NCBI GenBank assembly: GCA_017984435.1
Contig: JAGNZK010000005.1
Location: forward strand, 16,976 to 80,975
Direction: 5' to 3'
Source of the DNA: Nitrosomonas sp.
GTDB lineage: Bacteria > Pseudomonadota > Gammaproteobacteria > Burkholderiales > Nitrosomonadaceae
Length of the DNA: 64,000 bases
Part shown: in pieces, positions 38,796-53,286 of the stretch
Position numbering within the stretch: position 1 is the stretch's first letter
How the letters are laid out: each line of letters begins with the position of its first letter
Position numbers and translations under genes: made by a program
The notes under the pieces: model-generated
What the model was told of the DNA's origin: nothing
Seen by the model: the letters and a program-made list of their open reading frames with translations, nothing else
Databases searched by the model: none

Positions 38796-38861
38796 AGCGT
38801 TTGCAATTAAGCGCCTATACTGAGAAATCGGTTAATAAGTGACTCATCGCATTTGTGTTCA

Positions 38862-40004
38862 TTAAACAGCATGTTTGGGTTGATCCAGTCCATCAGGAAC
38901 CGGCACATCAGCCGGTGGCACGGGCGCATTACCACCGTATTCGTTATAACGTCTGAGTTGAAATACATACGCCAACACTTCAGCCACTGCGGTATAGAGT
39001 TTTTCAGGTATTTCACTCTCCAATTCAGCGTGGTAATACAAAGCACGCGCAAGCGGCGGCGCTTCCAGAATCGGCACACGATGCTCTTCCGCCATTTCAC
39101 GGATACGTGCGGCTAGCAGATGTACGCCTTTTGCAACCACTGTAGGCGCCCGCATGGTTTCACTTTTATACTTGAGCGCCACGGCATAATGCGTCGGGTT
39201 AGTTACAATGACGTCTGCGTTAGGTATCTCAGCCATCATGCGGCGACGTGCAGCTTCACGTTGCAAACCACGAATGCGGGCTTTCACAAAAGGATCGCCT
39301 TCGTCTTCTTTATGTTCCTTGCGTATCTCTTCCTTAGTCATGCGCAGTTGCTTTGCATGCTCCCAAAGCTGAAATGGCACATCGATCACAGCAATCAATG
39401 CCATCGCGCCCACAGTCAGTAGAAAACTCATCGCCAAATATTCGCCAGTTTGACTGATTCCGGAATCCACCGGCACCGTCAATAACGCCATCACTTCTTC
39501 TTTGTTGTGCCAAATAATCAGCACTGCTACACCGCCGATCACAATGGTTTTAGCGATTGCTTTTACCAGCTCAACCAAGCTGCGCATTGAGAATATTCTG
39601 CCAAAACCTTTAATGGGATTGATACGATCGAACTTGGGCATCAGTGCTTTGGCGCTGATCATCCAACCGCTTAATAGCATGGGTGCGAAAAACGCTACGA
39701 TAATTAGCAAAAGAAGTAAGGGAGCAATTGCAATTAAACCCTCCAGCGCAAGCTCATAGAAACGAATCAGCATCAAATCAGGTTGAAACGCCAACTCCCG
39801 TTCCAATTGCATGCCTACTTTCATGATTCTCAGGAGCTTATCCATCAGATCGGCACCCAAAAACACCATGCCGGCGGCAGCCACCATTAATAAGGCAAAT
39901 GTCGTCAATTCTTGAGAACGTGCAACCTGCCCTTCCTCTCGCGCTTTCTCAATGCGCTTGGGCGTCGCCGGTTCTGTACGTTCTAGATCACTTTCTTCAG
40001 ACAT
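38862..40004 (-). CDS. flhB: flagellar export switch protein FlhB
   Basis: 380 residues from the ATG at 40004 (MSEESDLERTEPATPKRIEKAREEGQVARS), with GGAG 8 nt upstream. A longer in-frame start at 40082 would add 26 unconserved residues. Four membrane helices lie in residues 30-215, and the cytoplasmic domain has the autocleavage site VTNPTHYAVALKY. FlhB switches export from hook to filament proteins after cleavage at NPTH. It heads the minus-strand flagellar operon. Confidence 0.97.
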   Translation of the reverse strand: MSEESDLERTEPATPKRIEKAREEGQVARSQELTTFALLMVAAAGMVFLGADLMDKLLRIMKVGMQLERELAFQPDLMLIRFYELALEGLIAIAPLLLLLIIVAFFAPMLLSGWMISAKALMPKFDRINPIKGFGRIFSMRSLVELVKAIAKTIVIGGVAVLIIWHNKEEVMALLTVPVDSGISQTGEYLAMSFLLTVGAMALIAVIDVPFQLWEHAKQLRMTKEEIRKEHKEDEGDPFVKARIRGLQREAARRRMMAEIPNADVIVTNPTHYAVALKYKSETMRAPTVVAKGVHLLAARIREMAEEHRVPILEAPPLARALYYHAELESEIPEKLYTAVAEVLAYVFQLRRYNEYGGNAPVPPADVPVPDGLDQPKHAV

Positions 40005-40296
40005 GACAAACTCCAAATTGCTTACAAATGAATTATCATGGTGGTTGCCCTGATCTGATACTAAGAACAAACAAGGAATCATCCCCTTTATTCATGCAAT
40101 GTTGGAGAAAGCCGCCTACTGCAATTTCTATCAATAGATTAGGGCGTAATAATCTATTAAATGCCTTATCTTGAGCACCCCGAGAAGTCTCTAAATAACC
40201 CGCATTTATGATTTCGGATACAGTGAAGAATCAAACCTTATCGATCCCTCGCCACGTTCGAAATCACAGCTGATTAACCGTTGATTGAACGAGAAT
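40005..40296. promoter_or_regulatory. divergent control region of flhB operon and acylase gene
   Basis: 292 bp without a supported gene. AATAGATT (40133-40140) and AATCTATT (40151-40158) form a perfect 8-bp inverted repeat with a 10-bp spacer, 130 bp upstream of flhB. It is a candidate binding site for a flagellar master regulator or another factor, but I cannot match it to a known consensus. I see no sigma-28 or sigma-54 promoter here. Confidence 0.35.
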
Positions 40297-42690
40297 ATGC
40301 AGTCTACTTTACGTTTCATCTGTTACTTCCTGGCAACAAGCCTATTAATCGCCTGTTTATTCATTATCACAACCGGATTACTGCTGCGTGGCAGCTTGCC
40401 GCAATATGATGGAGAAACGGTTTTATCCGGATTATCTTCCTCAGTATCGATCGACAGAGATACGCTCGGCAGCGTCACTTTTACCGGTCAGGATCGTCTG
40501 GATCTGGCAATGGCGATGGGCTACGTGCATGCGCAAGAGCGTTTCTTTGAAATGGACTTAATGCGCCGGCAGGCTGCCGGTGAACTGGCGAAATTATTGG
40601 GTAGCGGTTTGATCACCCATGATCGCAAAGCGCGGCAATTTCGTATGCGATCACGCGCTTCAGCAGTATTGCAGCAACTCCCGGCTGAGCAACTGCAATT
40701 ACTCGATGCGTATCGGATCGGCGTCAATCAAGGCATGCAAGCACTGGCTGTACGCCCTTTTCCGTATTTGCTAACGCAAACCCAACCAGCCGCGTGGCGC
40801 AATGAAGACAGCATTCTGGTGATTTACGCGATGTTTTTTACTCTGAATGAAGCAAATATTTCTCGTGAACTGAAACTATCCAGCATGCGCGCAGCATTGC
40901 CCGATGCAGTTTATCAATTTCTGACAACACCTGCCGGCAGTTGGGATGCACCGTTGATGGATGAACCGTTTGCATTGCCGGAACTGCCATCAGCCGCTGA
41001 CATTAATCTGCAAGCATTGGATGAGCACTTATTCAAAGACGATCATTTAACCGCGGAGCATTCGCCCGGAAGCAACAGTTTCGCGGTTTCCGGTGCCTTG
41101 GCGGATGGCGCTGCCTTGGTAGCTAATGACATGCATCTGACATTGCGAGTGCCCAATCTATGGTTTCGCACACGTCTCATTTATCCTTCCGCAACGTCAT
41201 CCGGTCATCATGACATCAGCGGCATCAGTTTACCGGGCGTCCCTTCGATCATCATCGGATCCAACCGCCATATTGCCTGGAGCTTCACCAACAGCCACGG
41301 CGATTTCGCCGACTGGGTACGAGTAAAAATCGATGAAAAAGATAACACACGCTATTTCGGTGCAACAGGCTGGAAACCGCTTAATATCATTCAGGAAACG
41401 ATCCATGTTCGCGATGCCCCGGATGAAATACTCACGATTTCTGAAACCGAATGGGGCCCCATCATGGCACAGGATCATGATGAAACCCCATTGGCGCTAG
41501 TCTGGACAGCACTGCAACCCGAAGCCATCAATCTAAAGCTGATTGAATTGGAACACACACAAACAACCGGACAAGCGGCAAGAATCGCACAACTGGCAGG
41601 CATGCCGGTACAGAATTTTATCGTCGGTGATCGCACTGGCAACATCAGTTGGACGCTCGCAGGGCGCATCCCGGCTCGATCCGGCAATTATGATCCGCAA
41701 GTCCCCGTCGACTGGACACCCCCTGATACCGGCTGGAACGGTTGGTTGGATGTCGAGCAATATCCACTGATCAACAATCCGGTTTCACAACGATTATGGT
41801 CCGCGAACTCGCGCGCCGTCTCGGGTAATCAGCTTGCACTTCTGGGCAATGGCGGCTATGACCTGGGCGCGCGAGCCACGCAAATCCGCGACAGCTTATT
41901 GGTACGCGACCAATTTACCGTTGCCGATATGCAAGCCATCCAACTGGATTATCGCGCATTGTTATTAACGCACTGGTATCAATTACTGAAAATCACATTG
42001 GAATCGACTGACGGTAACTTACCATGGGTTGCCGCGCTGAAAACTGCGTTAGATGATTGGGATGGACAAGCCTCGGCGAATTCTGTCGCCTATCGTACAG
42101 TACGCACGTATCGCTATGAAGTGATGGAAACCGTGTTAAACGGCTTTGCCGCGCAGGTACGACAACAGGATGCAACTTTTAAGCTTCCCAGACTCAGCCA
42201 GGCAGAATGGATTGTATGGCAATTACTTGAGCGCCAACCTCACCACCTGCTACCACTACCATACAAAAATTGGGAAGAACTGCTGAATCGTAGTGCACAA
42301 AATATTGCAGCACAACTACAACGAAACGGCGGAATTACTGAACGCAACTGGGGCGAATACAACGCTGCACGAATCAGGCACCCACTAAGCCAGAAACTAC
42401 CCGCATGGATTGCACAATGGCTGGATATGCCGAATGATCCGTTGCCCGGTGATCACAACATGCCGCGCGTCCAATCCCCTGATTTTGGCGCTTCACAGCG
42501 CTCAGCCGTAGCACCTGGCCAAGAAGAACAAGGTTATCTGGACATGCCGGGTGGACAAAGTGGACATCCGCTATCACCTTATTATGGCAGCGGTCATGCC
42601 AATTGGGTTAGCGGAAAACCGACGCCGTTTCTCCCCGGTGCACCTGAAAAGCAAATGAAGTTTATTCCCATCAGTTCGCAATCGAACTGA
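40297..42690 (+). CDS. penicillin acylase family (Ntn-hydrolase) protein
   Basis: 797 residues from the ATG at 40297; a TTG four codons earlier is less likely. An N-terminal hydrophobic signal or anchor (FICYFLATSLLIACLFIITTGLLL) leads to an alpha-chain-like region with MGYVHAQERFFEMDLMRRQAAGELA. Precursor cleavage should occur before the Ser of PGSNSFAVSG near residue 259, the new N-terminal nucleophile. The beta chain has ANDMHL, IVGDRTGNISWTLAGRIP and a C-terminal GGQSGHPLSPYYGSGHANW motif. These periplasmic enzymes cleave amides such as acyl-homoserine lactones or beta-lactam side chains. The substrate here is unknown. Confidence 0.9.
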   Translation: MQSTLRFICYFLATSLLIACLFIITTGLLLRGSLPQYDGETVLSGLSSSVSIDRDTLGSVTFTGQDRLDLAMAMGYVHAQERFFEMDLMRRQAAGELAKLLGSGLITHDRKARQFRMRSRASAVLQQLPAEQLQLLDAYRIGVNQGMQALAVRPFPYLLTQTQPAAWRNEDSILVIYAMFFTLNEANISRELKLSSMRAALPDAVYQFLTTPAGSWDAPLMDEPFALPELPSAADINLQALDEHLFKDDHLTAEHSPGSNSFAVSGALADGAALVANDMHLTLRVPNLWFRTRLIYPSATSSGHHDISGISLPGVPSIIIGSNRHIAWSFTNSHGDFADWVRVKIDEKDNTRYFGATGWKPLNIIQETIHVRDAPDEILTISETEWGPIMAQDHDETPLALVWTALQPEAINLKLIELEHTQTTGQAARIAQLAGMPVQNFIVGDRTGNISWTLAGRIPARSGNYDPQVPVDWTPPDTGWNGWLDVEQYPLINNPVSQRLWSANSRAVSGNQLALLGNGGYDLGARATQIRDSLLVRDQFTVADMQAIQLDYRALLLTHWYQLLKITLESTDGNLPWVAALKTALDDWDGQASANSVAYRTVRTYRYEVMETVLNGFAAQVRQQDATFKLPRLSQAEWIVWQLLERQPHHLLPLPYKNWEELLNRSAQNIAAQLQRNGGITERNWGEYNAARIRHPLSQKLPAWIAQWLDMPNDPLPGDHNMPRVQSPDFGASQRSAVAPGQEEQGYLDMPGGQSGHPLSPYYGSGHANWVSGKPTPFLPGAPEKQMKFIPISSQSN

Positions 42691-42794: not shown

Positions 42795-45515
42795 TTAAAA
42801 CTGATAACTCCACGTAGCTGCTAATGATCCTTGACGATCCAATTGGAATCCGTTGAAATCACTCCTAACCGGTTGTATCCATTCAAAGCCGAAACGATTA
42901 CCGGCAAACCGCCCGCCCGGGATGATGGCATTCAGTCCCAACCCGATATCCCAGAATTGTCCGCCATAATTTGCGGGAAAATCCATCGGGCCAATCCGCG
43001 CGTTGAACGAATCAAAGTCGCGATGTATCGCACCTTGCAAGGTATACGCACCACGCACAGAAGCGGTCAGCCACTGTGTCAAGTCATAACCGCCCCAGGT
43101 GGTCGCTTGAAACATATCGCCCAAGCGATAACCGGATTTGTTTTTTTCTTCCAGGCGTTTGACGCCACTCAGTTGCGCACCCCAGGACCAGCGGCTTTTT
43201 TCACCGGCATACGTCAGGCTGGGCATAAAATCCCAGGTACCGCTACCCAATTGCATGCCGAAATGGATCAATCCGCCGTCAATCTTGGCCATGCGACGTA
43301 ACTCGATATCCACCTTTCCGGTCGGCGCACTGAGTCCAAGATTCATATGGACACGATGACCTGGAATATTAATCAGCTTCACTAACGATGAAAAATAAGT
43401 ATCCCCAACCGCACCGGTTTCATGACCTGCCGCGCCGGTATGTTCGTGCACACCCGGTACGGGGGGCGGGGCTCCGGACAGTCTGCGCAGATTCATATCC
43501 ATGTCCATGAATGTGGGCATCAGCATCACGTTCCACCATTTGGTGGGTGCATACATAATGTCGAGCATATGCATGCGCATATTCATAAAAGTCGGCGTAA
43601 ACCGACACGGCACTGCATCGCTACAACCCTGATCGACGATGATCTGGTCAGCTATACTATGGGCACCATGCATCATATTTCCACCGGTCCAGTTATACAT
43701 AAATCGGTATCCCGCCATGAAATCCCCCGGTTTATCGAGCATATGACCAAACATGATACCTGCGGGGGGAATTTTGTGATGGTGATGCGAGGAAGTATGC
43801 ACATGGGATCCGGAAGATCCGCTGGAACCTCCCATCGGCAGAGAAGTAGTCGGCTCAATATCAAACTTTATTGCGGCATTCGCCACATAGTAATCAAAAT
43901 CGGCAAAACTGTTATTGCCGCTGCCGATCTGCATCGAGCTGGCGCGGGTGTAGTATTCAAAACCGGCTTCCAGCGCAACGCCTTTGCCAAGCATTTTACT
44001 CAATACCACGCCACCGCTTAATGCGCCAAAACCCGCCAGACGATGATCACTGGAAAAATTCTCGGGTAATTTCCCGGCATCATAAGTAACGAATTTGGGT
44101 TGCACGGTTTGAGACAAGGCATCGTCAATTCGATTGCCGTTCTGGTCTACATAATTAAAAAAACCGTCTCGAAAATATTGCTCATTAGGATTCTTGGGAT
44201 TGAAAAAGATTTCTCGTCCTAGATTATCAACTGCTTGTTTTTGAAAAACTTGTTGTGAGAATAAATAAGGCCGATAAAAACTGGCAGCATCTTGCGAGTA
44301 ATAGCGAATACGCGGTGTCAATGTCCATCCGTTACCAAGCGGCTGTACCCAATTTGCATCAAAGGTATGGGTATTGATGCCCCAATCGTCTACCGACAAC
44401 CGGTAACCAAGATGCAATGCCGCATTAAACGGGCTGATATATTGAATATATTTTGTGTTTAAGGCCACCTGATTACGAATATCCGGGCGCTGCTCAATCA
44501 GTGCGCGTACCTTCCCAGTAACTAAGCCTGATTGCCCATTGTTCAATTCAGCCGGATCAATAAAAATAACCGACATCGTTTTATAAGGATTCTCCTGAAA
44601 ACCATTGCTATGGGTATAACCGATATTGACATCCAGCAATGCATTCTTGGTCAACACCTGCGACACACCGACATTCGTCACCCAATCCTGCCGATTACCT
44701 TGCAGGATCTCAGAACCACCACGATTTACAATTTGTGACGCATAGGCAGTCTTCGTAATATAAGGGGATGAATCATGATCCAGGATTGCGCCGATTTCAC
44801 TATGCGTATACCCGCCATTAAATTTAACGCTGGTCAATTTTTGGTTAAAATCAAGACGCCCACCGATACTGCCAAAACTTGACTTATAGTCACGCTCTCG
44901 TGAAAAACCACCTGCCACATTGATGGCCACTTCATTCCATTCATGACTTAAACCGAAAGTGGCTTGGCGACGTGTTTCCGGCGAGGCTGACGACATGACC
45001 ATCACGGATCGGGGATCGACGACTCCCGATGATTGTTTCGTGATGGGATCTCGTCCAATCGGATTTAAATCACGGTCTAATAACACATTGCTCTGTAGAA
45101 GCGGAGATGCGCCAACCACCACCCCATTATTGAAATATGCACGATTACCGCCATCGGTAGCCAATGGTGTTGTTGTTACGGGTGTCGCGCCCGACCAGGT
45201 ATCCTGTGTATAACCAAAAGTAAATTTGGTGCGATCAGTCAGAGAGAAAATACCACTGCCATGCAAAACGTCGGCACTGATGGGTTTTAGGCTGGGAACG
45301 CCATACAGATTACGCTCGCCTTCCTGGTAGCGGCTATATTGAAAATTAATCCGGTCTTTTCCGATAGCATGTCCAGGTGTGATTAACAAACCAGGCAATA
45401 CCAATGCGGCAGAAGTAAGTGCGTGAAGCGTATTCCGTGATTTTACAGGTGGTGCTTCCAAAGTACCCGATTGATGGCTGCTGCCCTGACGCAAGGGCAT
45501 ACTATTTCGTTGCAA
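42795..45515 (-). CDS. DUF3570 outer-membrane barrel fused to a Met/His-rich metal-type barrel
   Basis: 906 residues from a TTG at 45515 that has AGGTGA 7 nt upstream; the first ATG (45500) is too far from it. A signal-like segment (LTSAALVLPGLLITPGHA) ends near residue 50. Residues 55-565 look like a DUF3570 barrel (YQEGERNLYGV, YTQDTWSGATP, GGFSRERDY). A linker with SSGSSGSHVHTSSHHHH leads to a second barrel (580-906) rich in Met and His (MRMHMLDIMYAP, MLMPTFMDMDMNLRR, GLSAPTGKVDI), like the 'transporter' proteins found beside copper genes. DUF3570 proteins are normally about half this size. It ends a set with TlpA and DUF4266 genes. Confidence 0.82.
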   Translation of the reverse strand: MQRNSMPLRQGSSHQSGTLEAPPVKSRNTLHALTSAALVLPGLLITPGHAIGKDRINFQYSRYQEGERNLYGVPSLKPISADVLHGSGIFSLTDRTKFTFGYTQDTWSGATPVTTTPLATDGGNRAYFNNGVVVGASPLLQSNVLLDRDLNPIGRDPITKQSSGVVDPRSVMVMSSASPETRRQATFGLSHEWNEVAINVAGGFSRERDYKSSFGSIGGRLDFNQKLTSVKFNGGYTHSEIGAILDHDSSPYITKTAYASQIVNRGGSEILQGNRQDWVTNVGVSQVLTKNALLDVNIGYTHSNGFQENPYKTMSVIFIDPAELNNGQSGLVTGKVRALIEQRPDIRNQVALNTKYIQYISPFNAALHLGYRLSVDDWGINTHTFDANWVQPLGNGWTLTPRIRYYSQDAASFYRPYLFSQQVFQKQAVDNLGREIFFNPKNPNEQYFRDGFFNYVDQNGNRIDDALSQTVQPKFVTYDAGKLPENFSSDHRLAGFGALSGGVVLSKMLGKGVALEAGFEYYTRASSMQIGSGNNSFADFDYYVANAAIKFDIEPTTSLPMGGSSGSSGSHVHTSSHHHHKIPPAGIMFGHMLDKPGDFMAGYRFMYNWTGGNMMHGAHSIADQIIVDQGCSDAVPCRFTPTFMNMRMHMLDIMYAPTKWWNVMLMPTFMDMDMNLRRLSGAPPPVPGVHEHTGAAGHETGAVGDTYFSSLVKLINIPGHRVHMNLGLSAPTGKVDIELRRMAKIDGGLIHFGMQLGSGTWDFMPSLTYAGEKSRWSWGAQLSGVKRLEEKNKSGYRLGDMFQATTWGGYDLTQWLTASVRGAYTLQGAIHRDFDSFNARIGPMDFPANYGGQFWDIGLGLNAIIPGGRFAGNRFGFEWIQPVRSDFNGFQLDRQGSLAATWSYQF

Positions 45516-45552
45516 ATTTTATTCACCTGAAAAAATCTTAACGGGGATTCGC

Positions 45553-45786
45553 TTAATAACAACCACATCCACCGCCACCCGAAGAGGATTTATGGCTTGG
45601 CGCTGCTTCGCGACTGCTGTAGTTATGCGATTGTAATTCACTTTGCAGAGGATGTGGATCCAGTTCCATCTCAGGTTTCGCAAGAATGCCACGTTCCCAT
45701 GGTGCGATATTGACACAACCGGTTCCCCCAATACCCATTGCGAGTATGGATCCGAGAATCGTTGCATAATAGCGAATTTTTCTCAT
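45553..45786 (-). CDS. DUF4266 lipoprotein with C-terminal GGGGCGCY
   Basis: 77 residues from the ATG at 45786; a TTG at 45798 would add four and has GAGGGA 10 nt upstream, so the start is uncertain. A short signal ends in the lipobox GGTGC. The mature part holds WERGILAKPEMELDPHPLQSELQSHNYSSREAA and ends SSSGGGGCGCY. This matches the DUF4266 pattern as I know it, with a fixed Gly-Cys-Gly-Cys tail. Function unknown. The paired cysteines next to a TlpA-type oxidoreductase gene (27 bp upstream) suggest a thiol or metal role at the outer membrane. Confidence 0.82.
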   Translation of the reverse strand: MRKIRYYATILGSILAMGIGGTGCVNIAPWERGILAKPEMELDPHPLQSELQSHNYSSREAAPSHKSSSGGGGCGCY

Positions 45787-45813
45787 GAAGTAATACAAAT
45801 ATAAAAAATCCCT

Positions 45814-46323
45814 CTATTTCTCAGGTTCCATCACCAATTGCGTAATCAATTCACGCAATTTCTCAGATTCATCCGGGCGGAACCCTTGATGAATATGACG
45901 AATGTTCCCTTTCCGATCAATCAAATAGGAAGTTGGCATTGCCATTACCTCAAGACCTTTGGCGCATTGCTTACTTGGATCCGCAACAATCGAAAAATCG
46001 ACTGGATTTTTAGCAAGAAAATCCTCAGCGTCTGCAATTTTCTCATCCAGATTGATACCAATTACGTGCAGACCTTTATCTTTCAATTCATGATCCAGTT
46101 GATTTAGAAAAGGAAAAGACTTGACGCAGGGAGGACACCAGGATGCCCAGAAATCCATGTAGACAACTTTTCCCTTAAATTCTTGTAAATCATGCGCAGG
46201 CTTGCCATCTAATGTCGTTAATGCACAAGCAGACGATACCTGTTCCAAATGCTCCGCGAATGAAGTTTTCACCAACAAAACCAGCATCGCAAACACAAAA
46301 CATAGTAATTTTATTTTCTTCAT
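45814..46323 (-). CDS. TlpA-like periplasmic thioredoxin-fold oxidoreductase
   Basis: 169 residues from the ATG at 46323, with GAGGTAA about 8 nt upstream; a longer start at 46359 would mask the signal. A signal peptide ends at TSFA before EHLEQ. The thioredoxin fold has the active site WASWCPPCVKSFPFL and the cis-Pro loop AMPTSYLID. Such proteins reduce periplasmic disulfides in cytochrome or copper-site assembly. The gene lies 49 bp after a small secreted-protein gene and 27 bp before the DUF4266 gene, so these four genes form one unit ending in the double-barrel protein. Confidence 0.9.
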   Translation of the reverse strand: MKKIKLLCFVFAMLVLLVKTSFAEHLEQVSSACALTTLDGKPAHDLQEFKGKVVYMDFWASWCPPCVKSFPFLNQLDHELKDKGLHVIGINLDEKIADAEDFLAKNPVDFSIVADPSKQCAKGLEVMAMPTSYLIDRKGNIRHIHQGFRPDESEKLRELITQLVMEPEK

Positions 46324-46372
46324 TTGGGCATTACCTCGATTAATTGGGTTAATAGCCAATAAATCAATCCAC

Positions 46373-46831
46373 TCACTTAAACTGTTGAACAGTAATATCT
46401 GTTCCAGTATGTACGTTATTCGCTGTCATACAGTGATAACTGACCAAGAACGATCGCGCACCCGCACCGGTTTTGTTTACCAGCAATAAATATACGCCAT
46501 TTCCGCCTTGCACACTGACTTCAGGACTGGAATTCGTATCTCCTGAAACGAAATCGGTCGTGCTGATTGCACTATTGCCTTTGATGATTTGCAAATTAAC
46601 CAACAGATTAGCTTGTGGTGGCGAAGTATCTCGGACACTGGCTACCAGATGATCCGCAGAACCATTGCCATCGTCAAAACAAGTTACTAAGGCATATCCG
46701 GTAAAGCTCGCGACATTACCATCGGGATCCATGGTAGCACCCGCATCATGCGCGCTACTTAATCCAGTATAGCCAGCTGCGACCATAATGAAAATCACTT
46801 GCAAATACTTTTGTACTTTGATTTTCCACAT
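46373..46831 (-). CDS. small secreted protein, CFDDGNG family, copy B
   Basis: 152 residues that I do not recognise. A signal peptide (YLQVIFIMVAAGYTGLSSA) would leave mature HDAGATMDPDG, an N-terminal His. The core has VTCFDDGNGSADHLVASVRD and a tail with SYHCMTANNVHTGTDI. The two Cys (TCFDD and YHCMT) could form a disulfide. It is clearly paralogous to the protein at 47979-48443. RBS GAGGA upstream. It starts a new unit after a terminator and is followed by tlpA-like, DUF4266 and the double-barrel gene. Confidence 0.75.
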   Translation of the reverse strand: MWKIKVQKYLQVIFIMVAAGYTGLSSAHDAGATMDPDGNVASFTGYALVTCFDDGNGSADHLVASVRDTSPPQANLLVNLQIIKGNSAISTTDFVSGDTNSSPEVSVQGGNGVYLLLVNKTGAGARSFLVSYHCMTANNVHTGTDITVQQFK

Positions 46832-46893
46832 TTTATCAATCCTCTATCACTGTTAGGTGTTCATATTGGCGCAAACAGTTTTTGTAGTTTCTT

Positions 46894-46935
46894 AAAAAAA
46901 CCTCGCTCTAAATAAGGAAGGAGGAAAGAGCGAGG
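46894..46935 (-). terminator. intrinsic terminator after the YcnI-like gene A
   Basis: On the minus strand, CCTCGCTCT and AGAGCGAGG form a perfect 9-bp stem (46901-46909 with 46927-46935), followed directly by TTTTTTTAAG. This is a textbook rho-independent terminator 38 bp past the stop of the gene at 46973-47707. It separates that gene from the next unit. Confidence 0.88.
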
Positions 46936-46972
46936 GTCTTACAACATTAATTAGCGTTAAATACGCTGGCAA

Positions 46973-47707
46973 TTACTGTGGCCAAACTTGATTACCATCT
47001 AAAATGATCGGCATATCACGATTAATTTGCGCGGCTGAAGGTTTTACTTCAACTACCTGACCTACTCCTCCACACGAATCCGGCAAAGCACTGGTGCGAG
47101 TAATGGTCAATGATGCTGCACCATCTTCCCCGACACGATCATAAGGCGTACCCAATCCTGAGAGCGTCCACCGATTAATTGTTTCATCGCTAAATCCGGA
47201 AATGGGCGTGATTGCACAAATATCGACAATCGATACATGGAATTTCACACTGGCGGCACAGGATTCTGGTTCAATAATCGCTGCACTGGTTCTGAATGGA
47301 ATAAAACCAGTCATGTCATGCGGCAATGAATCACCACCACCGGCCCAGAAACCCGAGACATTCCCATTGGCATCCACTTTCTCACCTTGAAAGGTAAAAA
47401 CAGCTTTGCTATAAACCTTTTGATTCAGATTTCCCCAATTTTGCACAAAATCGACCAATACACCCGTATGCGGTTGACCATCCACTGTAATCGTCGAATC
47501 CTCGCCATCCGGAAACACCACGCTGGTACCTATCACATTGCGCTCGCCACAACCATGGCCAACTACAACGTTATTAGATACTCTGACACCCTCAGTGATT
47601 GTCGGTGTTTCCATCACAGTATGGGCAAATGCATTATGTCCGATCACTGTTGCTGCCACGGCAATTATCGAAGCGGTAGCAATTTTAAATTTACGATTTG
47701 TATACAT
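46973..47707 (-). CDS. exported YcnI/DUF1775-like protein, copy A
   Basis: 244 residues from the ATG at 47707, with GGAAGA 8 nt upstream; a GTG at 47746 lacks an RBS. The signal peptide ends NAFA, so the mature protein begins HTVMETPTI. The stretch VVVGHGCGERNVIGTSVVFPDG resembles the VGHGCxGxxT element of DUF1775 (YcnI) copper proteins, which also have an N-terminal His that binds Cu. Five Cys occur in the mature protein (HGCG, ESCA, DICAI and DSCGG among them), enough for two disulfides. The end is PSAAQINRDMPI...NQVWP. Copper binding is inferred. A paralogue lies at 49186-49938. Confidence 0.72.
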   Translation of the reverse strand: MYTNRKFKIATASIIAVAATVIGHNAFAHTVMETPTITEGVRVSNNVVVGHGCGERNVIGTSVVFPDGEDSTITVDGQPHTGVLVDFVQNWGNLNQKVYSKAVFTFQGEKVDANGNVSGFWAGGGDSLPHDMTGFIPFRTSAAIIEPESCAASVKFHVSIVDICAITPISGFSDETINRWTLSGLGTPYDRVGEDGAASLTITRTSALPDSCGGVGQVVEVKPSAAQINRDMPIILDGNQVWPQ

Positions 47708-47798
47708 ATTCTTATCTTCCAGTTTATTTATTAAAGTTTTCTGCACAGATTGACCGATTCAAATTTTTAATCAGAATAGCCTGAACTGAACACTCTTT

Positions 47799-47804
47799 TG
47801 TCAA
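47799..47804 (-). promoter_or_regulatory. candidate -35 box for the YcnI-like gene A
   Basis: The minus strand reads TTGACA here, a perfect -35 hexamer about 92 bp before the ATG. The best -10 (TATTCT at 47773-47778) is 20 bp away, too far for a strong promoter. That would fit dependence on an activator at the palindrome 47851-47867. Confidence 0.35.
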
Positions 47805-47850
47805 TCTAGCCGCACTTTGATTATCTGATTCCGAAATAGAAATATCAATG

Positions 47851-47867
47851 CGACAAATTGTCGCACC
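47851..47867. promoter_or_regulatory. operator-like palindrome TGCGACAA-A-TTGTCGCA
   Basis: A perfect 17-bp palindrome with 8-bp arms, 144 bp upstream of the YcnI-like gene A. An almost identical site precedes the paralogue at 50137-50153. The core GCGAC-N5-GTCGC resembles sites described for RegA/PrrA/RegR-type redox regulators, but the regulator here is unknown. Confidence 0.65.
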
Positions 47868-47931
47868 CGGCTGTTATGCCGATTATGAGGCAACAAAATA
47901 AGAAGGATCTTGAAGAAATCAGAGAGTATCT

Positions 47932-47959
47932 CCCGGTGCTTTCTTTCAAAAGCATCGGG
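47932..47959 (-). terminator. stable hairpin after CFDDGNG copy A
   Basis: CCCGGTGCTTT (47932-47942) and AAAGCATCGGG (47949-47959) pair over 11 bp with one G-U and a 6-nt loop, just past the stop at 47979 on the minus strand. There is no T-run, so it may be a weak terminator or a 3' end stabiliser. Confidence 0.5.
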
Positions 47960-47978
47960 AAATTGATATTGCTCAAAC

Positions 47979-48443
47979 CTATTGTTGCTGTCTAGACGTA
48001 ATACTTGTGCCAGTATGTACGTTACCTGCGGTTTTACAGTGAAAAATCACATCGTAACTGTCGGTTCCCGTCGTCGTATGCATCACAAATAAGCTATAGG
48101 TACCGGCACCTTGAGTCACCTTAACCAAAGGACTATAAGTCGTATTGTTATCTGTCGTATCTGTGCTGGATTGCGCGCACTTATTCGTCGTGCAGCTGGT
48201 TCCTTTATAGATTAAAACACTGGCTTTGGGTGTATTGGCCGTTATATCTTTCACTTGTGCTTCGAGATACGAAGGTGCACCATTACCGTCATCGAAACAA
48301 GTGACTTGATAAAAATCTACAGCAGCCGCCAATCCCGTGGTGAGACCACCACTCTGGTTATCTGCTAAAGCCGTACCCACCTGACTCATCATCAGTCCGC
48401 CAAACACGGTAATCAATGCACTTTTCAAAATTGAGCGTTCCAT
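47979..48443 (-). CDS. small secreted protein, CFDDGNG family, copy A
   Basis: 154 residues, family not recognised. A signal peptide ends GTALA before DNQSGG. The core VTCFDDGNGAPSYLEAQVKD and the tail FHCKTAGNVHTGTSIT align with copy B at 46373-46831. This copy has two extra Cys in GTSCTTNKCAQSS, so up to two disulfides. RBS GGAAGGA 7 nt from ATG. It lies 64 bp after the HEAT gene and is probably the last gene of the unit that starts at 49938. Confidence 0.75.
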   Translation of the reverse strand: MERSILKSALITVFGGLMMSQVGTALADNQSGGLTTGLAAAVDFYQVTCFDDGNGAPSYLEAQVKDITANTPKASVLIYKGTSCTTNKCAQSSTDTTDNNTTYSPLVKVTQGAGTYSLFVMHTTTGTDSYDVIFHCKTAGNVHTGTSITSRQQQ

Positions 48444-48507
48444 ACTATATTCCTTCCAATCATTAATCTATCAATGTGTTACCGGATAATATCGCAATGC
48501 CATCGCA

Positions 48508-49101
48508 CTAATGCTTACCGGTGTTGGGCAAAGACTCGAGCTTCATGGCAGCCAGCTCTCTGATGGCTTCTTCCTCATCATCCTTCGCTTGCTCAAGTAA
48601 AAAGATACTTCTTTCATCGGTGCCAAGACTGTCCACTGCCATCATGCGCACAGAAAGCTCGCTATCGTGCAGCGCCTGTTCAAGTACACTCAGTACATCC
48701 GTACATTCTTGTTGTGCGATGGCATAGACCGCCTGTGCTCGCACATTCGAATCCTTATCCAGAATGGCTTTCTGCAATATTTTTTGCACTACGCCGGCAT
48801 CAATGGGCGCTTTGACACCCAGTTGCGACAACGCGCTGATGCGTTGTTCAGGATTATTCGACGACGCTAAATTCATTATTTTTTCTGTTAACTCCGGATC
48901 CGATGCCCGTTGCATGTCGCCATCATCCGCAGCACAGCTGATTTGGAGTGATTCCAGGCTATTAAAAACAGCTTTGGTGGTATCGGCGCTGTTGGTCAAA
49001 CTGTCTGCCAAAACAGTATTCATCGACCCCATGACAAAAAGCAAAGAAATAAAGAACAGCACGAGTAAGTCGCGCTTTTGGTTTTGAAATTTCAACAACA
49101 T
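48508..49101 (-). CDS. exported HEAT-repeat protein
   Basis: 197 residues from the ATG at 49101, with the strong RBS GGGAGGA 4 nt upstream; a longer start at 49152 is rejected. A signal peptide (LLVLFFISLLFVMGSMNTVLA) is followed by helical HEAT-like repeats: MNLASSNNPEQRISALSQLG, AILDKDSNVRAQAVYAIAQ, ALHDSELSVRMMAVDSLG and KDDEEEAIRELAAMKLESL. Such repeats form protein-binding scaffolds. It sits between the two kinds of secreted protein, so it may scaffold them in the periplasm (inference). Confidence 0.78.
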   Translation of the reverse strand: MLLKFQNQKRDLLVLFFISLLFVMGSMNTVLADSLTNSADTTKAVFNSLESLQISCAADDGDMQRASDPELTEKIMNLASSNNPEQRISALSQLGVKAPIDAGVVQKILQKAILDKDSNVRAQAVYAIAQQECTDVLSVLEQALHDSELSVRMMAVDSLGTDERSIFLLEQAKDDEEEAIRELAAMKLESLPNTGKH

Positions 49102-49185
49102 TATTCCTCCCAAATTAAAGATAGAAGACGGGGGAGCTCCCATTCCGCCCATCCTCTATTAGAAACCACTACTACATTATTATTC

Positions 49186-49938
49186 TTATGGTTTCGGCCA
49201 AACTTGCTTACCGTTATGAACGATAGGCATATCGCGGTTTAATTGCGCAGCGGACGGAATCAATTCAACAGCAAGACCTGCGCCACAGGCTGCATCCAGC
49301 GGATTATTCACCACATCGCGATTCACCGTCAGAGTGGCAGGAGAATTATAACCATGCAGTCCTGGGCCATCATAGTCTGATCCCACAGCCGGTGTCCAAA
49401 GGTTGAGTATGCCTTCGGCAAAGCCGGCAACATTGGTAATCTTGCAAATATCCGCAATACTAACAGTAACTTTTACGCTCACAGCACATGAAGTGGGTTC
49501 AATCGCTAGTGCGCCAGCCCTAAACGGCAGATATGTCGCGTAATGGTCAGGCATTTTTCCAGCTTTTACATAAAATCCAACGGTATTACCATTGGCATCG
49601 AATTTCTCGTCCTCAGATTTAAAAACACTAGGATTCATTATCTTCTGGTACAAATTTCCATAGTTGGAAACATACGCATCAATCGTATCGGCAGTTTGTG
49701 TTCCATTGACTTTTACAATGGAATCAACACCATCCGGGAATACGATTGAACTGGCGATCACGTTCGTTCCTTCGCCACAACCATGCCCAATAACTACGTT
49801 ATTGGTCACTCTTAGATTCTCAGCGACCGTTGGTATTTCCAAACGGGTGTGTGAAAACGCACTTTGCGAAGCACCCAGTAGCAAAACAGCTGCTAGTGCG
49901 GAATGCACGGGAAATCCGAATTGTTTGAATTGTTTCAT
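49186..49938 (-). CDS. exported YcnI/DUF1775-like protein, copy B
   Basis: 250 residues. The signal peptide (LAAVLLLGASQSAFS) leaves a mature protein starting HTRLEIPTV. VVIGHGCGEGTNVIASSIVFPDG matches copy A and the DUF1775-like HGC element. The four Cys (HGCG, TSCA, DICKI, AACG) are at the same places as in copy A, and the end PSAAQLNRDMPIVHNGKQVWP is shared. The N-terminal His and the His of HGCG could form a copper site as in YcnI (inference). It is the first gene of its unit. A palindrome shared with copy A lies 199 bp upstream. Confidence 0.72.
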   Translation of the reverse strand: MKQFKQFGFPVHSALAAVLLLGASQSAFSHTRLEIPTVAENLRVTNNVVIGHGCGEGTNVIASSIVFPDGVDSIVKVNGTQTADTIDAYVSNYGNLYQKIMNPSVFKSEDEKFDANGNTVGFYVKAGKMPDHYATYLPFRAGALAIEPTSCAVSVKVTVSIADICKITNVAGFAEGILNLWTPAVGSDYDGPGLHGYNSPATLTVNRDVVNNPLDAACGAGLAVELIPSAAQLNRDMPIVHNGKQVWPKP

Positions 49939-50136: not shown

Positions 50137-50153
50137 TGCGACAAAATGTCGCA
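50137..50153. promoter_or_regulatory. operator-like palindrome TGCGACA-AAA-TGTCGCA
   Basis: 7-bp perfect arms around AAA, differing at one central base from the site at 47851-47867. It is 199 bp upstream of YcnI-like copy B (minus) and 272 bp upstream of the amidohydrolase (plus). Confidence 0.6.
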
Positions 50154-50261: not shown

Positions 50262-50278
50262 TGCGACAATTTGCCACA
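50262..50278. promoter_or_regulatory. degenerate third copy of the palindrome
   Basis: TGCGACAATTTGCCACA matches the ideal palindrome TGCGACAATTTGTCGCA at 15 of 17 positions. One arm is exact. It is 147 bp from the amidohydrolase ATG. Confidence 0.4.
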
Positions 50279-50424
50279 TTACCAGTATCGTTCTTCTTAC
50301 TTACAATCCCGAAAAATTAATCAATGTGCGTAAAAAGAATTAATGTTCTGTAAAGATTAAATACTCCTTCCCCGATCCTTCTCGATAAAACATCTGATGA
50401 AAATAAGTGCAATACAATACTTTT

Positions 50425-51732
50425 ATGAAAAAAATAGCTTATAGAAACGATAGATCCAAAGTAAATATATTTTTAATTTTCTTAGTCTTAGTATATGGAC
50501 TTGGTGTCAATAGCTTTGCTCAGGATGACCTGATCGCTGCTTCCAAGAATGATAGCTGTCAGGTATTAGTAGCCGATCGCGTGTTCGACGGTTTCAATTT
50601 GCTTAATAATGCGGCGGTCTTGTTTACAGGTAATAAAATCGTTCAGGTCGGCGATCAGGACCAATTGAGCGACATATGCCACCGTACGATCGACTTGGGT
50701 GATGCGACTATTCTGCCCGGATTTATTGAATCGCACTCGCACTTGGCCATTCAAAATATTCCGCATGACAAGGTATTGCAACATGGCATAACAACCGCCA
50801 GAGATACTGGTGGCCCGCTGCAAAAACCAACGGGCGGCAACGGGACATTGCGTGTATTAAGTGCCGGGCCTATCATTCAAGCCGTCGACGGTTATCCATT
50901 GAATATTTTCGGTCATAGTGAGAATAGTCATCATAGTAAATACGATGCCGTTGGTATTGCAGTCTCAACCATTGAAGAAGCGGAAACAGCCGTTAAAGAT
51001 CTTGTTGCAGGGGGATCGACGATTATCAAAATTGCGCTGGAACCAGGCGGAGAAGCCGGTGCGCCATGGATGTCCAGTCACGGTCATGGCGAGCCTCACA
51101 AAACGCCCTGGCCGTTACTTCCTCTCGATATTGTCAAGGCGATCGTTGCCAAAGCGCATTCTCTGAACAGGAAAGTGACTGCGCATGTCGGTGAAAATAG
51201 GGGAGTTGAACTGGCATTGGATGGCGGCGTGGATGAATGGGCACATATCCCTTGCACAGAAATCCGTGAAGACTTGTTGCATCGCGCAGTCGCTCAAAAC
51301 GTGACCTTTGTGACCACTATCGACACGTTGTCCGCTTGTGCAGGCGTACATGCAAATATGCATAAGCTTGCGCATATCATCGCTCATGCGACAGAAACAG
51401 AATCGAAATTCATATATGGTTCTGAAATCAGCCATGACAATGTACCCTGGGGAATCAATGGCGAAGAGATGACCTTAATGTTGCATTTAACCAGCGGAGA
51501 AACTATCGACTTTATGGATGTACTCAATGTATTTAAAGCAGTAACCTCCGAGGCGGGAAAAAACTTGGGTAAACCGCTGCTGGGAACATTATTGCAAGAT
51601 GCGCCGGCTGACATTATTGCAGTGCGCGGCAATCCGTTTCTAAGATTTAAACTATTGGAATATCCTGACCTGGTTATTTCAGGCGGTCACATTATTGTGA
51701 ATGATTTTAAGAAAAATAAAAGAAACCATTAA
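50425..51732 (+). CDS. exported metal-dependent amidohydrolase (imidazolonepropionase-like)
   Basis: 435 residues from the ATG at 50425; a GTG at 50407 would add six. A signal peptide (VNIFLIFLVLVYGLGVNSFA) precedes QDDLIAAS. The amidohydrolase fold shows the metal HxH in LPGFIESHSHLA, the likely carbamylated Lys in TIIKIALEPG, metal His in VTAHVGENRG and DEWAHIP, and the metal Asp in SEISHDNVPWG. The C-terminal beta part ends DIIAVRGNP. The substrate is unknown. No clear RBS. It lies 10 bp before the spermidine-synthase-like gene, so they are probably one unit. Confidence 0.87.
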   Translation: MKKIAYRNDRSKVNIFLIFLVLVYGLGVNSFAQDDLIAASKNDSCQVLVADRVFDGFNLLNNAAVLFTGNKIVQVGDQDQLSDICHRTIDLGDATILPGFIESHSHLAIQNIPHDKVLQHGITTARDTGGPLQKPTGGNGTLRVLSAGPIIQAVDGYPLNIFGHSENSHHSKYDAVGIAVSTIEEAETAVKDLVAGGSTIIKIALEPGGEAGAPWMSSHGHGEPHKTPWPLLPLDIVKAIVAKAHSLNRKVTAHVGENRGVELALDGGVDEWAHIPCTEIREDLLHRAVAQNVTFVTTIDTLSACAGVHANMHKLAHIIAHATETESKFIYGSEISHDNVPWGINGEEMTLMLHLTSGETIDFMDVLNVFKAVTSEAGKNLGKPLLGTLLQDAPADIIAVRGNPFLRFKLLEYPDLVISGGHIIVNDFKKNKRNH

Positions 51733-51741
51733 AGGTCAAGT

Positions 51742-53286
51742 ATGAATCAATCTTCTTCAAAATTCCTGGGAAAAGCTTGGCTGTATTGCACCGTATTTCT
51801 GACCGGTGCAGCGGTGATGGTCATAGAACTGCTGGGGACACGCCTGATTGCCCCCTTTTATGGCGCCAGTCTTTATGTCTGGACTTCTCTGATCTCTGTC
51901 ACATTGATCGCTTTGGCTTTAGGTTACTATCTGGGCGGAATCTGGGCAGATCGGGCGCGATCGGGACTATCATTCATCATTGCGCTGGCCGGATTATTAA
52001 CCCTCATCATTCCCTGGCTAACCGGGCCGGTACTACTCGCGACCGATCCTTTAGGGTTACGCTTGGGCAGCTTTGTGAGCACACTGATACTGTTCTCACC
52101 CAGCTTGATCATGTTGGGAATGATCGGGCCTTTTGCGGTTAAATTATCCACCTCCGCGTTGACCAACGTCGGTGCCAGCACCGGTTCCATCTATGCCGTC
52201 AGCACGGTTGGCAGCGTGATCGGAACATTATTTCTTGGTTTTTATTTATTTCCGCTGATCGGCTCGCGTGAAATTTTCATTGGTTTAGGTATTGCACTGC
52301 TTTTATTGGCGCTGATCGTTGCTGTGATTGAGCGTAAGTATCTCAAGTCCGCGATGGTGGTGGCACCAACCGTCTTATTGGTGGTTATCAGTATTGGCTT
52401 ATATCCGCAGATCGCTAATTCAGGCAAAGCCGAATCTAGTGATGCGTTTCACACTCGGTTTGAACGCGAAAGCCTGTACGGCTGGGTTCGGGTAATCGAC
52501 AAACCCAAAGAAAATATTCGCTTACTGACGGTTGATGCTTCCACCATTGGCGCAGCCAGCATCAGTCATGGCGAGAATCTTTTAACCTATCAAAAAATTG
52601 TAACGCGCATTCCCGCGTTAGTCCCTAATATGAAAAGCGCCCTATTGATCGGCCAAGGCGCCGGACATATGGCGATAGCGCTGAAAGATTATGGAATCGT
52701 GACAGATACGCTGGAAATAGATCCAGCAGTGGCTGAAGCAGCAAGCAAATACTTTGGTTTTACACCCACGGGTCGAACCATCATCGGAGATGCGCGCTAT
52801 GAAATTCGTCAGCTTAAGGGTCCTTATGACTTGATCATCCTGGATGTCTTTACAGGTGGCTCGGAACCAACACATTTACTGACAGTTGAAGCCATGGCGC
52901 AATTACATGCGTTACTTGCAGATCATGGCATATTGGCGCTGAATTTCGTTTCATTTCTGGAAAATGGCCAGAATGCGGCATTGGCCTCCGTGGCAAAAAC
53001 ACTGGCTCAGGTTTTTCCTCATCAGCAGGTATTTATTTCCGATCCGGGAGCAGATTTCAATGATTTCATTTTTCTTGCCACGAATCATGCGCTCAATATG
53101 GAAGATGAGTCACTGTCAAGTACACATCGCGTCTGGTTGAAACAGCGACACCTGCAGATTGATTCATCCCAAGGCGTGATTCTGACCGACAATCTCAGTT
53201 CGCTTGAACGCTTACAAATACGTAAATCGGAATACTATCGGCGCATGGTTGTTGACTCAATCGGCACCAGCCACTTCATCCGTTAA
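51742..53286 (+). CDS. membrane-fused spermidine synthase-like protein
   Basis: 514 residues. Residues 10-230 hold about seven membrane helices, starting with FLTGAAVMVIELLGTRLIAPFYG, as in 'fused MFS/spermidine synthase' proteins. Residues 250-500 form a Rossmann methyltransferase-like domain with LLIGQGAGHMAIAL in place of the GGGDG loop of SpeE, LEIDPAVAEAA and IILDVFTGG. It may transfer an aminopropyl or related group at the membrane, but activity is unproven. The tail IRKSEYYRRMVVDSIGTSHF is echoed by a broken copy at 56845-56916. RBS AAAGG upstream. Confidence 0.85.
   Translation: MNQSSSKFLGKAWLYCTVFLTGAAVMVIELLGTRLIAPFYGASLYVWTSLISVTLIALALGYYLGGIWADRARSGLSFIIALAGLLTLIIPWLTGPVLLATDPLGLRLGSFVSTLILFSPSLIMLGMIGPFAVKLSTSALTNVGASTGSIYAVSTVGSVIGTLFLGFYLFPLIGSREIFIGLGIALLLLALIVAVIERKYLKSAMVVAPTVLLVVISIGLYPQIANSGKAESSDAFHTRFERESLYGWVRVIDKPKENIRLLTVDASTIGAASISHGENLLTYQKIVTRIPALVPNMKSALLIGQGAGHMAIALKDYGIVTDTLEIDPAVAEAASKYFGFTPTGRTIIGDARYEIRQLKGPYDLIILDVFTGGSEPTHLLTVEAMAQLHALLADHGILALNFVSFLENGQNAALASVAKTLAQVFPHQQVFISDPGADFNDFIFLATNHALNMEDESLSSTHRVWLKQRHLQIDSSQGVILTDNLSSLERLQIRKSEYYRRMVVDSIGTSHFIR

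Follow-up and report, generated by a model that had tools for sequence, protein, structure and literature searches.

We analyzed an eight-gene cluster of Nitrosomonas sp. (positions 42795 to 49938, minus strand, with their flanks, in a 64,000-nucleotide stretch of contig JAGNZK010000005.1 that is termed the window herein). The cluster joins a known flavin/thioredoxin electron module to a Met-rich barrel and to secreted proteins that start with His, which suggests metal reduction and capture at the cell surface. The reading that we prefer, with a probability of roughly 40%, is that flavins drive a redox-controlled, reductive capture of metal at the outer membrane, with copper as the most likely metal. 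In transcription order (49938 to 42795), the genes are YCN_A, HEAT, CFD_A, YCN_B, CFD_B, TlpA, DUF4266, and a gene for a DUF3570 fusion protein of 906 amino acids (aa). YCN and CFD are our own labels, and G, L, and C numbers denote the compared genomes, loci from these genomes, and contigs, respectively.

An earlier note on this DNA had described eight successive minus-strand genes with mostly exported products as an undescribed metal-handling system. The open reading frames (ORFs) are present, all eight have signal-peptide-like N termini (judged by eye), and Pfam agreed with the naming of the DUF3570, DUF4266, TlpA (redoxin/TlpA-like), and HEAT families (Table 1). The core is not undescribed: Meheust et al. 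2021 (PMC8238504) had already reported TlpA-DUF4266-DUF3570-ApbE as a flavinylation cluster. The fused barrel, the His-starting YCN, CFD, the divergent MFS/spermidine-synthase-like gene (MFS, major facilitator superfamily), and the palindrome described below are features that we found in no paper. Our literature search found no paper besides PMC8238504 that names DUF3570 or DUF4266 and none that joins Nitrosomonas with DUF1775, and PMC12537917, PMC6769254, PMC4831470, PMC7561615, and PMC11334425 gave nothing that bears directly on this cluster. The note had overlooked the division into two modules, the absence of the usual last gene, apbE, and the associated divergent genes at 50407-53286.

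Two modules in the cluster

The eight genes are two separable modules, YCN-HEAT-CFD and YCN-CFD-TlpA-DUF4266-DUF3570::barrel. The window proteins were mapped onto 30 Nitrosomonas loci with DUF3570 (L065/L109 and L071/L114 are the same contigs counted twice), and the order YCN-CFD-TlpA-DUF4266-DUF3570 was found in 29 of them, with YCN missing at this place in L076. Gene content and order thus recur in other loci, which argues that the run is not due to chance. ApbE comes next in 26 of the 30 loci (the exceptions are the window, L076, L110, and L115), and in L092 the DUF3570 gene is broken over two frames. The YCN-HEAT-CFD module is joined to this core in the window, L062, L063, L065/L109, L066, L071/L114, and L075, and lies apart from it in other genomes, for instance behind L092/L093 and L094/L095. 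Scattering of the genes in relatives, which the earlier note had named as evidence against a system, is therefore seen for one module and not for the other: the five-gene core stays in order, and YCN-HEAT-CFD is often elsewhere. Among relatives of CFD_A in named genomes, 16 of 17 are Nitrosomonas records, and one is from an uncultured beta proteobacterium labelled AOB. In L079 (G000:C19), a shortened second copy, YCN-CFD-TlpA without DUF4266 and DUF3570, stands beside czcI- and czcC-like genes (assigned by eye).

The DUF3570 fusion protein and ApbE

In Chlorobium luteolum, ApbE flavinylates DUF3570 at two motifs that follow the rule [S/T]GA[S/T], and covalent flavin mononucleotide (FMN) was shown on the protein (PMC8238504). 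Both flavin-acceptor positions are retained in all 13 DUF3570 sequences that we aligned. GA is invariant in the first motif and is followed by Thr or Ser; GAS is invariant in the second, where the window protein (VGAS) departs from [S/T] at the first position.

The part that follows the DUF3570 domain is predicted to be an outer-membrane barrel. The earlier note had called it Met/His-rich. Among the 11 sequences that have this C-terminal part, conservation in at least 9 extends to 16 Met, 10 His, and 2 Cys, while the DUF3570 part of the same 11 sequences conserves only the start Met and 3 His. The Met/His conservation of the fusion is thus confined to the barrel part, and Met makes up 16.7% of residues 585 to 680. 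The C-terminal part has no Pfam match of its own at E ≤ 10. A free-standing relative was found in G400, after the end of a YCN gene and before a TlpA-like gene (L221). In the fusion, about 28 residues precede the hydrophobic core of the signal peptide, and relatives also show this long n-region.

Occurrence was surveyed in the window genome and 60 further genomes of the genus, 61 in all (the G genomes are taken to be Nitrosomonas). DUF3570 is encoded in 50 of them, in 47 by a frame that stays open for 824 aa or more, and ApbE likewise in 50; both occur in 49 genomes and neither in 10. The two remaining genomes are G032, with DUF3570 at a contig edge and no ApbE, and G038, with an ApbE of a longer type and no DUF3570. 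In 44 of the 50 same-genus carriers, no more than 4 kb separates ApbE from DUF3570, and the two are on separate contigs in G003, G004, G019, and G023. In the window genome, apbE is found on contig C83, where it adjoins an IS3-like transposase gene (by eye); the cluster itself has no room for it, because a convergent acylase-like gene (40285-42690) ends about 100 bases from the stop of the fusion. The ApbE proteins linked to DUF3570 seem to lack a signal peptide, as the catalytic domain begins at most 25 residues from the listed start in 31 of 36 ORFs (28 of 33 distinct ones; for example, L129:6570-7487), and a cytosolic enzyme that modifies an exported barrel would be odd.

Gene clusters of ApbE, DUF3570, a thioredoxin-like protein, and DUF4266, some with DsbD, have been published, 316 clusters being without a linked DsbD, and their function was called uncertain (PMC8238504). 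The second module is the Nitrosomonas form of this flavinylation module.

The secreted families YCN and CFD

No credible Pfam or NCBIfam match was obtained for YCN or CFD. The two YCN proteins had been called YcnI/DUF1775-like; the features behind this name (a mature N-terminal His, an HGC motif, and a Trp) are present, but neither protein matches PF07987 at E ≤ 10, and the whole window genome contains no PF07987 match. Membership of DUF1775 by sequence was therefore rejected, also because an hhalign comparison with one DUF1775 protein gave 14%. That DUF1775 protein had no match in a PDB sequence search and none in a plasmid search, and PDB sequence searches with the YCN and CFD profiles gave one chance-level match each.

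In all 26 aligned YCN sequences, Ala, Ser, or Thr directly precedes His at the predicted cleavage site (placed by eye), and this His, His52, Cys54, Cys151, Cys165, Cys218, and Trp247 are invariant. With regard to the cupredoxin fold of DUF1775/YcnI, the structural model of YCN_A is largely beta, with a mean predicted local distance difference test (pLDDT) score of 73.1. In 31 CFD sequences, Cys49, Asp66, Tyr116, His135, Cys136, and His143 are invariant; cleavage at the site predicted by eye would leave His at the N terminus in 25 and Asp in the other 6, including CFD_A of the window. The two families are linked by a fusion, since in a single protein of 368 aa (L197:8196-9302), residues 13-130 form a CFD domain (51.8 bits) and residues 154-363 a YCN domain (118.9 bits). 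A comparison of the YCN profile with the CFD profile gave a match confined to the signal-peptide region.

A palindrome upstream of YCN genes

The 17-bp palindrome TGCGACA-N3-TGTCGCA occurs in two exact copies in the window (Table 1). The 2.8-Mb window genome has six exact sites and nine with at most one mismatch, with no match to the reversed control, and seven of the nine adjoin YCN-type genes. Across the 61 genomes, 152 exact sites were found in 44 genomes, versus 2 reversed-control sites. When up to three mismatches are allowed, 62 of 68 distinct YCN genes have the palindrome upstream (4 of the other 6 are the second YCN gene of a tandem pair), compared with 10 of 61 CFD genes, 2 of 36 TlpA genes, 2 of 34 DUF4266 genes, 2 of 35 DUF3570 genes, and none of 21 HEAT genes, a distribution that fits an operon driven from YCN. 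The corresponding figure for control genes, 83 of 635, is inflated, as some loci had been chosen for holding the palindrome.

The palindrome also precedes genes for FecI-type sigma factors, tonB, TonB receptors, PepSY_TM proteins, and BNR-repeat proteins in G001, G021, and G036, all three of them without YCN, and in G026 and G038. Further sites precede a multicopper-oxidase-like gene (L233), genes for other His-starting secreted proteins, and sugar-nucleotide and unrelated genes. Palindrome clusters in L136 (from a genome without YCN) and L151 consist of BNR-repeat secreted proteins with TonB receptors and a DUF2325 protein; the lowest E value of these receptors was for NCBIfam PqqU, with a score that falls far short of the cutoff. 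At L131:7347 (G000:C53), a one-mismatch site stands before a gene for a PEP-CTERM-like protein, and the next gene, judged by eye, resembles one for a di-heme peroxidase.

In G009, the palindrome overlaps the listed start of a kinase gene that scores best in NCBIfam against ActS/PrrB/RegB (270.9 bits; cutoff, 350). A homologue of this RegB-like kinase is present in all 61 genomes, and of the 30 loci that match best, 25 carry the palindrome upstream with up to three mismatches. The window sites at 50152 and 47864 agree with 15 and 14, respectively, of the 15 positions of what we take to be the RegR consensus, and three other places in the window reach 14. With moderate confidence, the palindrome is a predicted site of a RegA/PrrA-type regulator that acts with the RegB-like kinase. 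Published japonicum RegR boxes include TGCGACATCGGCGGC (PMC4064962).

Two other identities were set aside. A Fur box was rejected on the promoter comparison and because the Fur box reported for N. europaea is E. coli-like (PMC3050691): the examined FecI promoters that bear the palindrome gave Fur-box matches with 7 to 9 mismatches versus a shuffled median of 8; 5 mismatches, the lowest shuffled value, are attained by some palindrome-free FecI promoters and by 2 of 9 YCN promoters. Control by PEP-CTERM/PrsR had been a first guess from the one L131 site, and the wider set of sites favored RegB-RegA.

Occurrence outside the genus

In a search of the class with the YCN profile, 7 of 369 genomes gave a match, and 5 of these are outside the genus. 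Three other families of the class carry the module (L197, L198, and L086), two of them together with the palindrome. In L197 (G349), the CFD-YCN fusion gene is accompanied by genes for YCN, TlpA, DUF4266, a DUF3570 fusion of 917 aa, and ApbE. L198 (G274) contains a CFD-like gene, YCN, TlpA, DUF4266, a fusion of 895 aa, pieces of a second copy, ApbE, and five exact palindromes; a Spondin-domain protein (NF038123, 145.1 bits) is encoded inside this island at L198:6490-7323. Around the YCN matches of G236 and G403 (L199 and L200), no relative of CFD, TlpA, or DUF3570 was found within 19 kb. G075, from another family of the order, has two fusions, ApbE, TlpA, a CFD-like gene, and six palindromes (three exact, three with one mismatch), and its island also holds TonB-receptor and PepSY-like genes. 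Four other genomes of the order (L099-L102) carry TlpA-DUF4266-DUF3570-ApbE without barrel, YCN, or CFD.

Features and surroundings of the cluster

TABLE 1 Coordinates of features in and next to the cluster
Feature	Position	Strand	Match or remark
Fusion protein of 906 aa: DUF3570, then Met/His-rich predicted outer-membrane barrel	42795..45515	-	
Met/His-rich C-terminal part, residues 561-906	42798..43835	-	
DUF3570 domain, residues 31-543	43887..45425	-	PF12094, 344.8 bits
Second predicted flavinylation motif VGAS, residues 134-137	45105..45116	-	
First predicted flavinylation motif SGAT, residues 108-111	45183..45194	-	
DUF4266 lipoprotein-like protein, C-terminal CGCY (CXC)	45553..45798	-	PF14086, 69 bits
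TlpA/ResA-like periplasmic thioredoxin, WCPPC	45814..46359	-	Pfam/NCBIfam
CFD_B, secreted, CFDDGNG family, predicted mature N terminus His	46373..46831	-	
YCN_B, secreted, predicted mature N-terminal His	46973..47746	-	
Exact palindrome, upstream of YCN_B	47849..47865	.	TGCGACA-N3-TGTCGCA
CFD_A, secreted, CFDDGNG family, predicted mature N terminus Asp	47979..48443	-	
Exported HEAT-repeat protein	48508..49152	-	PF02985/PF13646
YCN_A, secreted, predicted mature N-terminal His	49186..49938	-	
Exact palindrome, between YCN_A and the divergent genes	50137..50153	.	TGCGACA-N3-TGTCGCA
Weaker palindrome copy, 2 mismatches	50262..50278	.	Number of such weak sites as expected by chance in 64 kb
Divergent exported amidohydrolase-like protein	50407..51732	+	Adjoins YCN_A in relatives
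Fused MFS/spermidine-synthase-like protein	51742..53286	+	NF037959, 199.1 bits (cutoff, 40)

YCN_B is listed from a GTG, with a downstream ATG as the likely start, and DUF4266 probably starts at an ATG a few codons inside the listed ORF. The MFS/spermidine-synthase-like gene adjoins YCN in many mapped loci, and pieces of it lie near the cluster in another family (L219). A sigma-70 promoter scan was uninformative (16 sites versus 19.2 expected). The acylase-like gene beside the cluster resembles penicillin acylase/PvdQ, with a weak NCBIfam match (46.2 bits; cutoff, 950), and just past it, at 36711-40082, are genes of flagellar export that by eye look FlhA- and FlhB-like. A second PvdQ-like gene (L130:12250-14655) stands beside a YCN-like gene, FecI/FecR, a TonB receptor, and a phosphopantetheinyl-transferase-like gene. 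At L080:1132-6735, a gene for an adenylating-enzyme-like protein of 1867 aa (nonribosomal-peptide-synthetase type, by eye) diverges from a YCN gene, and the two have the palindrome region in common.

Proposed function and alternatives

In the mechanism that we propose, the TlpA thioredoxin would supply electrons and would itself be reduced by a DsbD-type membrane protein, as is thought for such systems. DUF4266, the CXC lipoprotein, would relay the electrons to the DUF3570 part of the fusion, to which ApbE would attach two FMN groups, and the flavins would reduce a metal ion at the outer membrane, most likely Cu(II) to Cu(I). The fused Met/His-rich barrel may then bind or pass the reduced soft ion, YCN, with its N-terminal His, and CFD may catch or hand over the oxidized metal, and the palindrome would set expression, most likely through a RegA/PrrA-type redox response regulator and the RegB-like kinase. 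A bolder version appears rather doubtful to us: a two-domain outer-membrane protein with covalent flavins in one domain and a soft-metal path in the other, in which electrons from a thioredoxin and a CXC lipoprotein would reduce surface Cu(II) and the second barrel would let Cu(I) enter, so that the cluster would be a redox-controlled importer that helps to provide ammonia monooxygenase with copper. Metal capture and outer-membrane passage, as suggested in the earlier note, survive as an idea, on the Met/His conservation of the barrel and the N-terminal His of YCN; its reading of TlpA as a keeper of thiols for copper or heme sites gives way to electron supply to the DUF3570 flavins as the better explanation.

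Copper is favored because of the Met cluster and the His-starting proteins, and iron because of the genes that share the palindrome; the earlier note's reading, which named copper or a similar metal, is partly supported, and these genes indicate iron as much as copper. The same flavin-thioredoxin path might act on ferric iron, as a reductase of the cell surface or periplasm that frees Fe(II) from xenosiderophores together with TonB receptors and PepSY reductases, a possibility to be kept in mind although we consider it the less probable. It would account for the palindromes before FecI-type sigma, tonB, TonB-receptor, and PepSY_TM genes and for the G075 island, which joins TonB-receptor and PepSY-like genes, TlpA, two DUF3570 fusions, ApbE, and several palindromes; moreover, the L130 receptor passes the siderophore-receptor model TIGR01783 (346.7 bits; cutoff, 223.5). 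A conserved Met cluster is unusual for iron sites, and the Fur-box matches of the palindrome-bearing FecI promoters lie near the shuffled median. Published work bears on both sides: 25 DUF3570 or DsbD-type clusters hold the iron transporter VIT1 (PMC8238504), siderophore iron use in Caulobacter needs a PepSY protein (PMC13001220), and the reported N. europaea Fur box is unlike the palindrome (PMC3050691).

Redox proteins make up most of the core, a gene for a redox-sensor-like kinase has the palindrome upstream, and the genes with this site are a broad set that includes sugar-nucleotide, PEP-CTERM-like, and unrelated genes. It is conceivable, if unlikely, that the chain disposes of electrons or keeps envelope thiols or methionines reduced under RegBA-type control, the metal-like residues being incidental. 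This would leave unexplained why the N-terminal His of YCN is invariant, why Met/His conservation is confined to the barrel, and why promoters are shared with TonB uptake genes. Tolerance to copper or silver, in which Cu(I) would be bound and exported through the Met-rich barrel in the manner of CopB/PcoB, seems very improbable. The predicted Met-rich outer-membrane barrel, the neighbors of the shortened copy in L079, and the L233 multicopper-oxidase-like gene with its upstream palindrome would suit it; the palindromes are, however, common to uptake genes, none of ten window proteins scanned matched a copper-resistance family, and reduction of Cu(II) to Cu(I) usually raises toxicity.

Against reductive metal capture with copper as the metal stand several of our own results. 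The cues for copper are resemblances, YCN fails the DUF1775 hidden Markov model and reaches 14% in the profile comparison with one DUF1775 protein, and the FecI-type sigma, tonB, TonB-receptor, and PepSY_TM genes with the palindrome fit iron at least as well. As for flavinylation, ApbE is absent from the window cluster, and the first residue of the second motif is off the rule. As for regulation, 17 of the 61 genomes have no exact palindrome; G349 has none either, its one-mismatch sites lying far from its cluster, which is without a nearby palindrome; the kinase scores below its family cutoff, and 5 of the 30 regB-like loci lack the palindrome; the RegR box used is a presumed one; and published PrrA sites are degenerate.

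The form of DUF3570 that is fused to a Met/His-rich barrel offers a concrete substrate that can be tested. If this substrate is copper, the cluster bears on the copper supply of ammonia oxidizers, whose key enzyme needs this metal. Through the conserved palindrome, a group of genes for envelope redox functions and metal uptake becomes accessible to experiment.

Comparison with known systems

With the clusters of Meheust et al., as far as PMC8238504 describes them, the window shares DUF3570 with two predicted flavin sites (the second as VGAS), a DUF4266 protein ending in CXC, and a thioredoxin-like protein, and ApbE accompanies DUF3570 in 49 of the 50 same-genus carriers. Unlike in those descriptions, DUF3570 is fused in the window to a Met/His-rich barrel, the YCN and CFD families, the conserved palindrome, and the MFS/spermidine-synthase-like neighbor are added, and ApbE is unlinked. 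YcnI binds Cu(II) via its N-terminal His, a Glu, and a nearby Trp (PMC8424229). YCN is, like YcnI/DUF1775, exported, with a predicted mature N-terminal His, and its invariant C-terminal Trp may correspond to the Trp of the YcnI metal site; it differs from the published account in its four invariant Cys and has an invariant His about 22 residues on, at a possibly equivalent place to that where YcnI of B. subtilis uses a Glu 23 residues on (PMC8424229). YCN also exceeds the 146-position DUF1775 model in length.

The palindrome resembles RegB-RegA/PrrBA/RegSR sites in its GCG...CGC inverted repeat and its place upstream of the RegB-like kinase gene in most loci, and unlike these sites, which are degenerate and of variable spacing, it has a fixed 3-bp spacer and near-perfect symmetry. 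A Met-rich predicted outer-membrane barrel is common to the window fusion and, as we understand those proteins, CopB/PcoB. Among Phenol_MetA_deg-type barrels, the free-standing relative in L221 matches PF13557 (36.4 bits), and the window barrel matches no Pfam family. Unlike both CopB/PcoB and the Phenol_MetA_deg-type barrels, the window barrel is fused to a flavoprotein domain.

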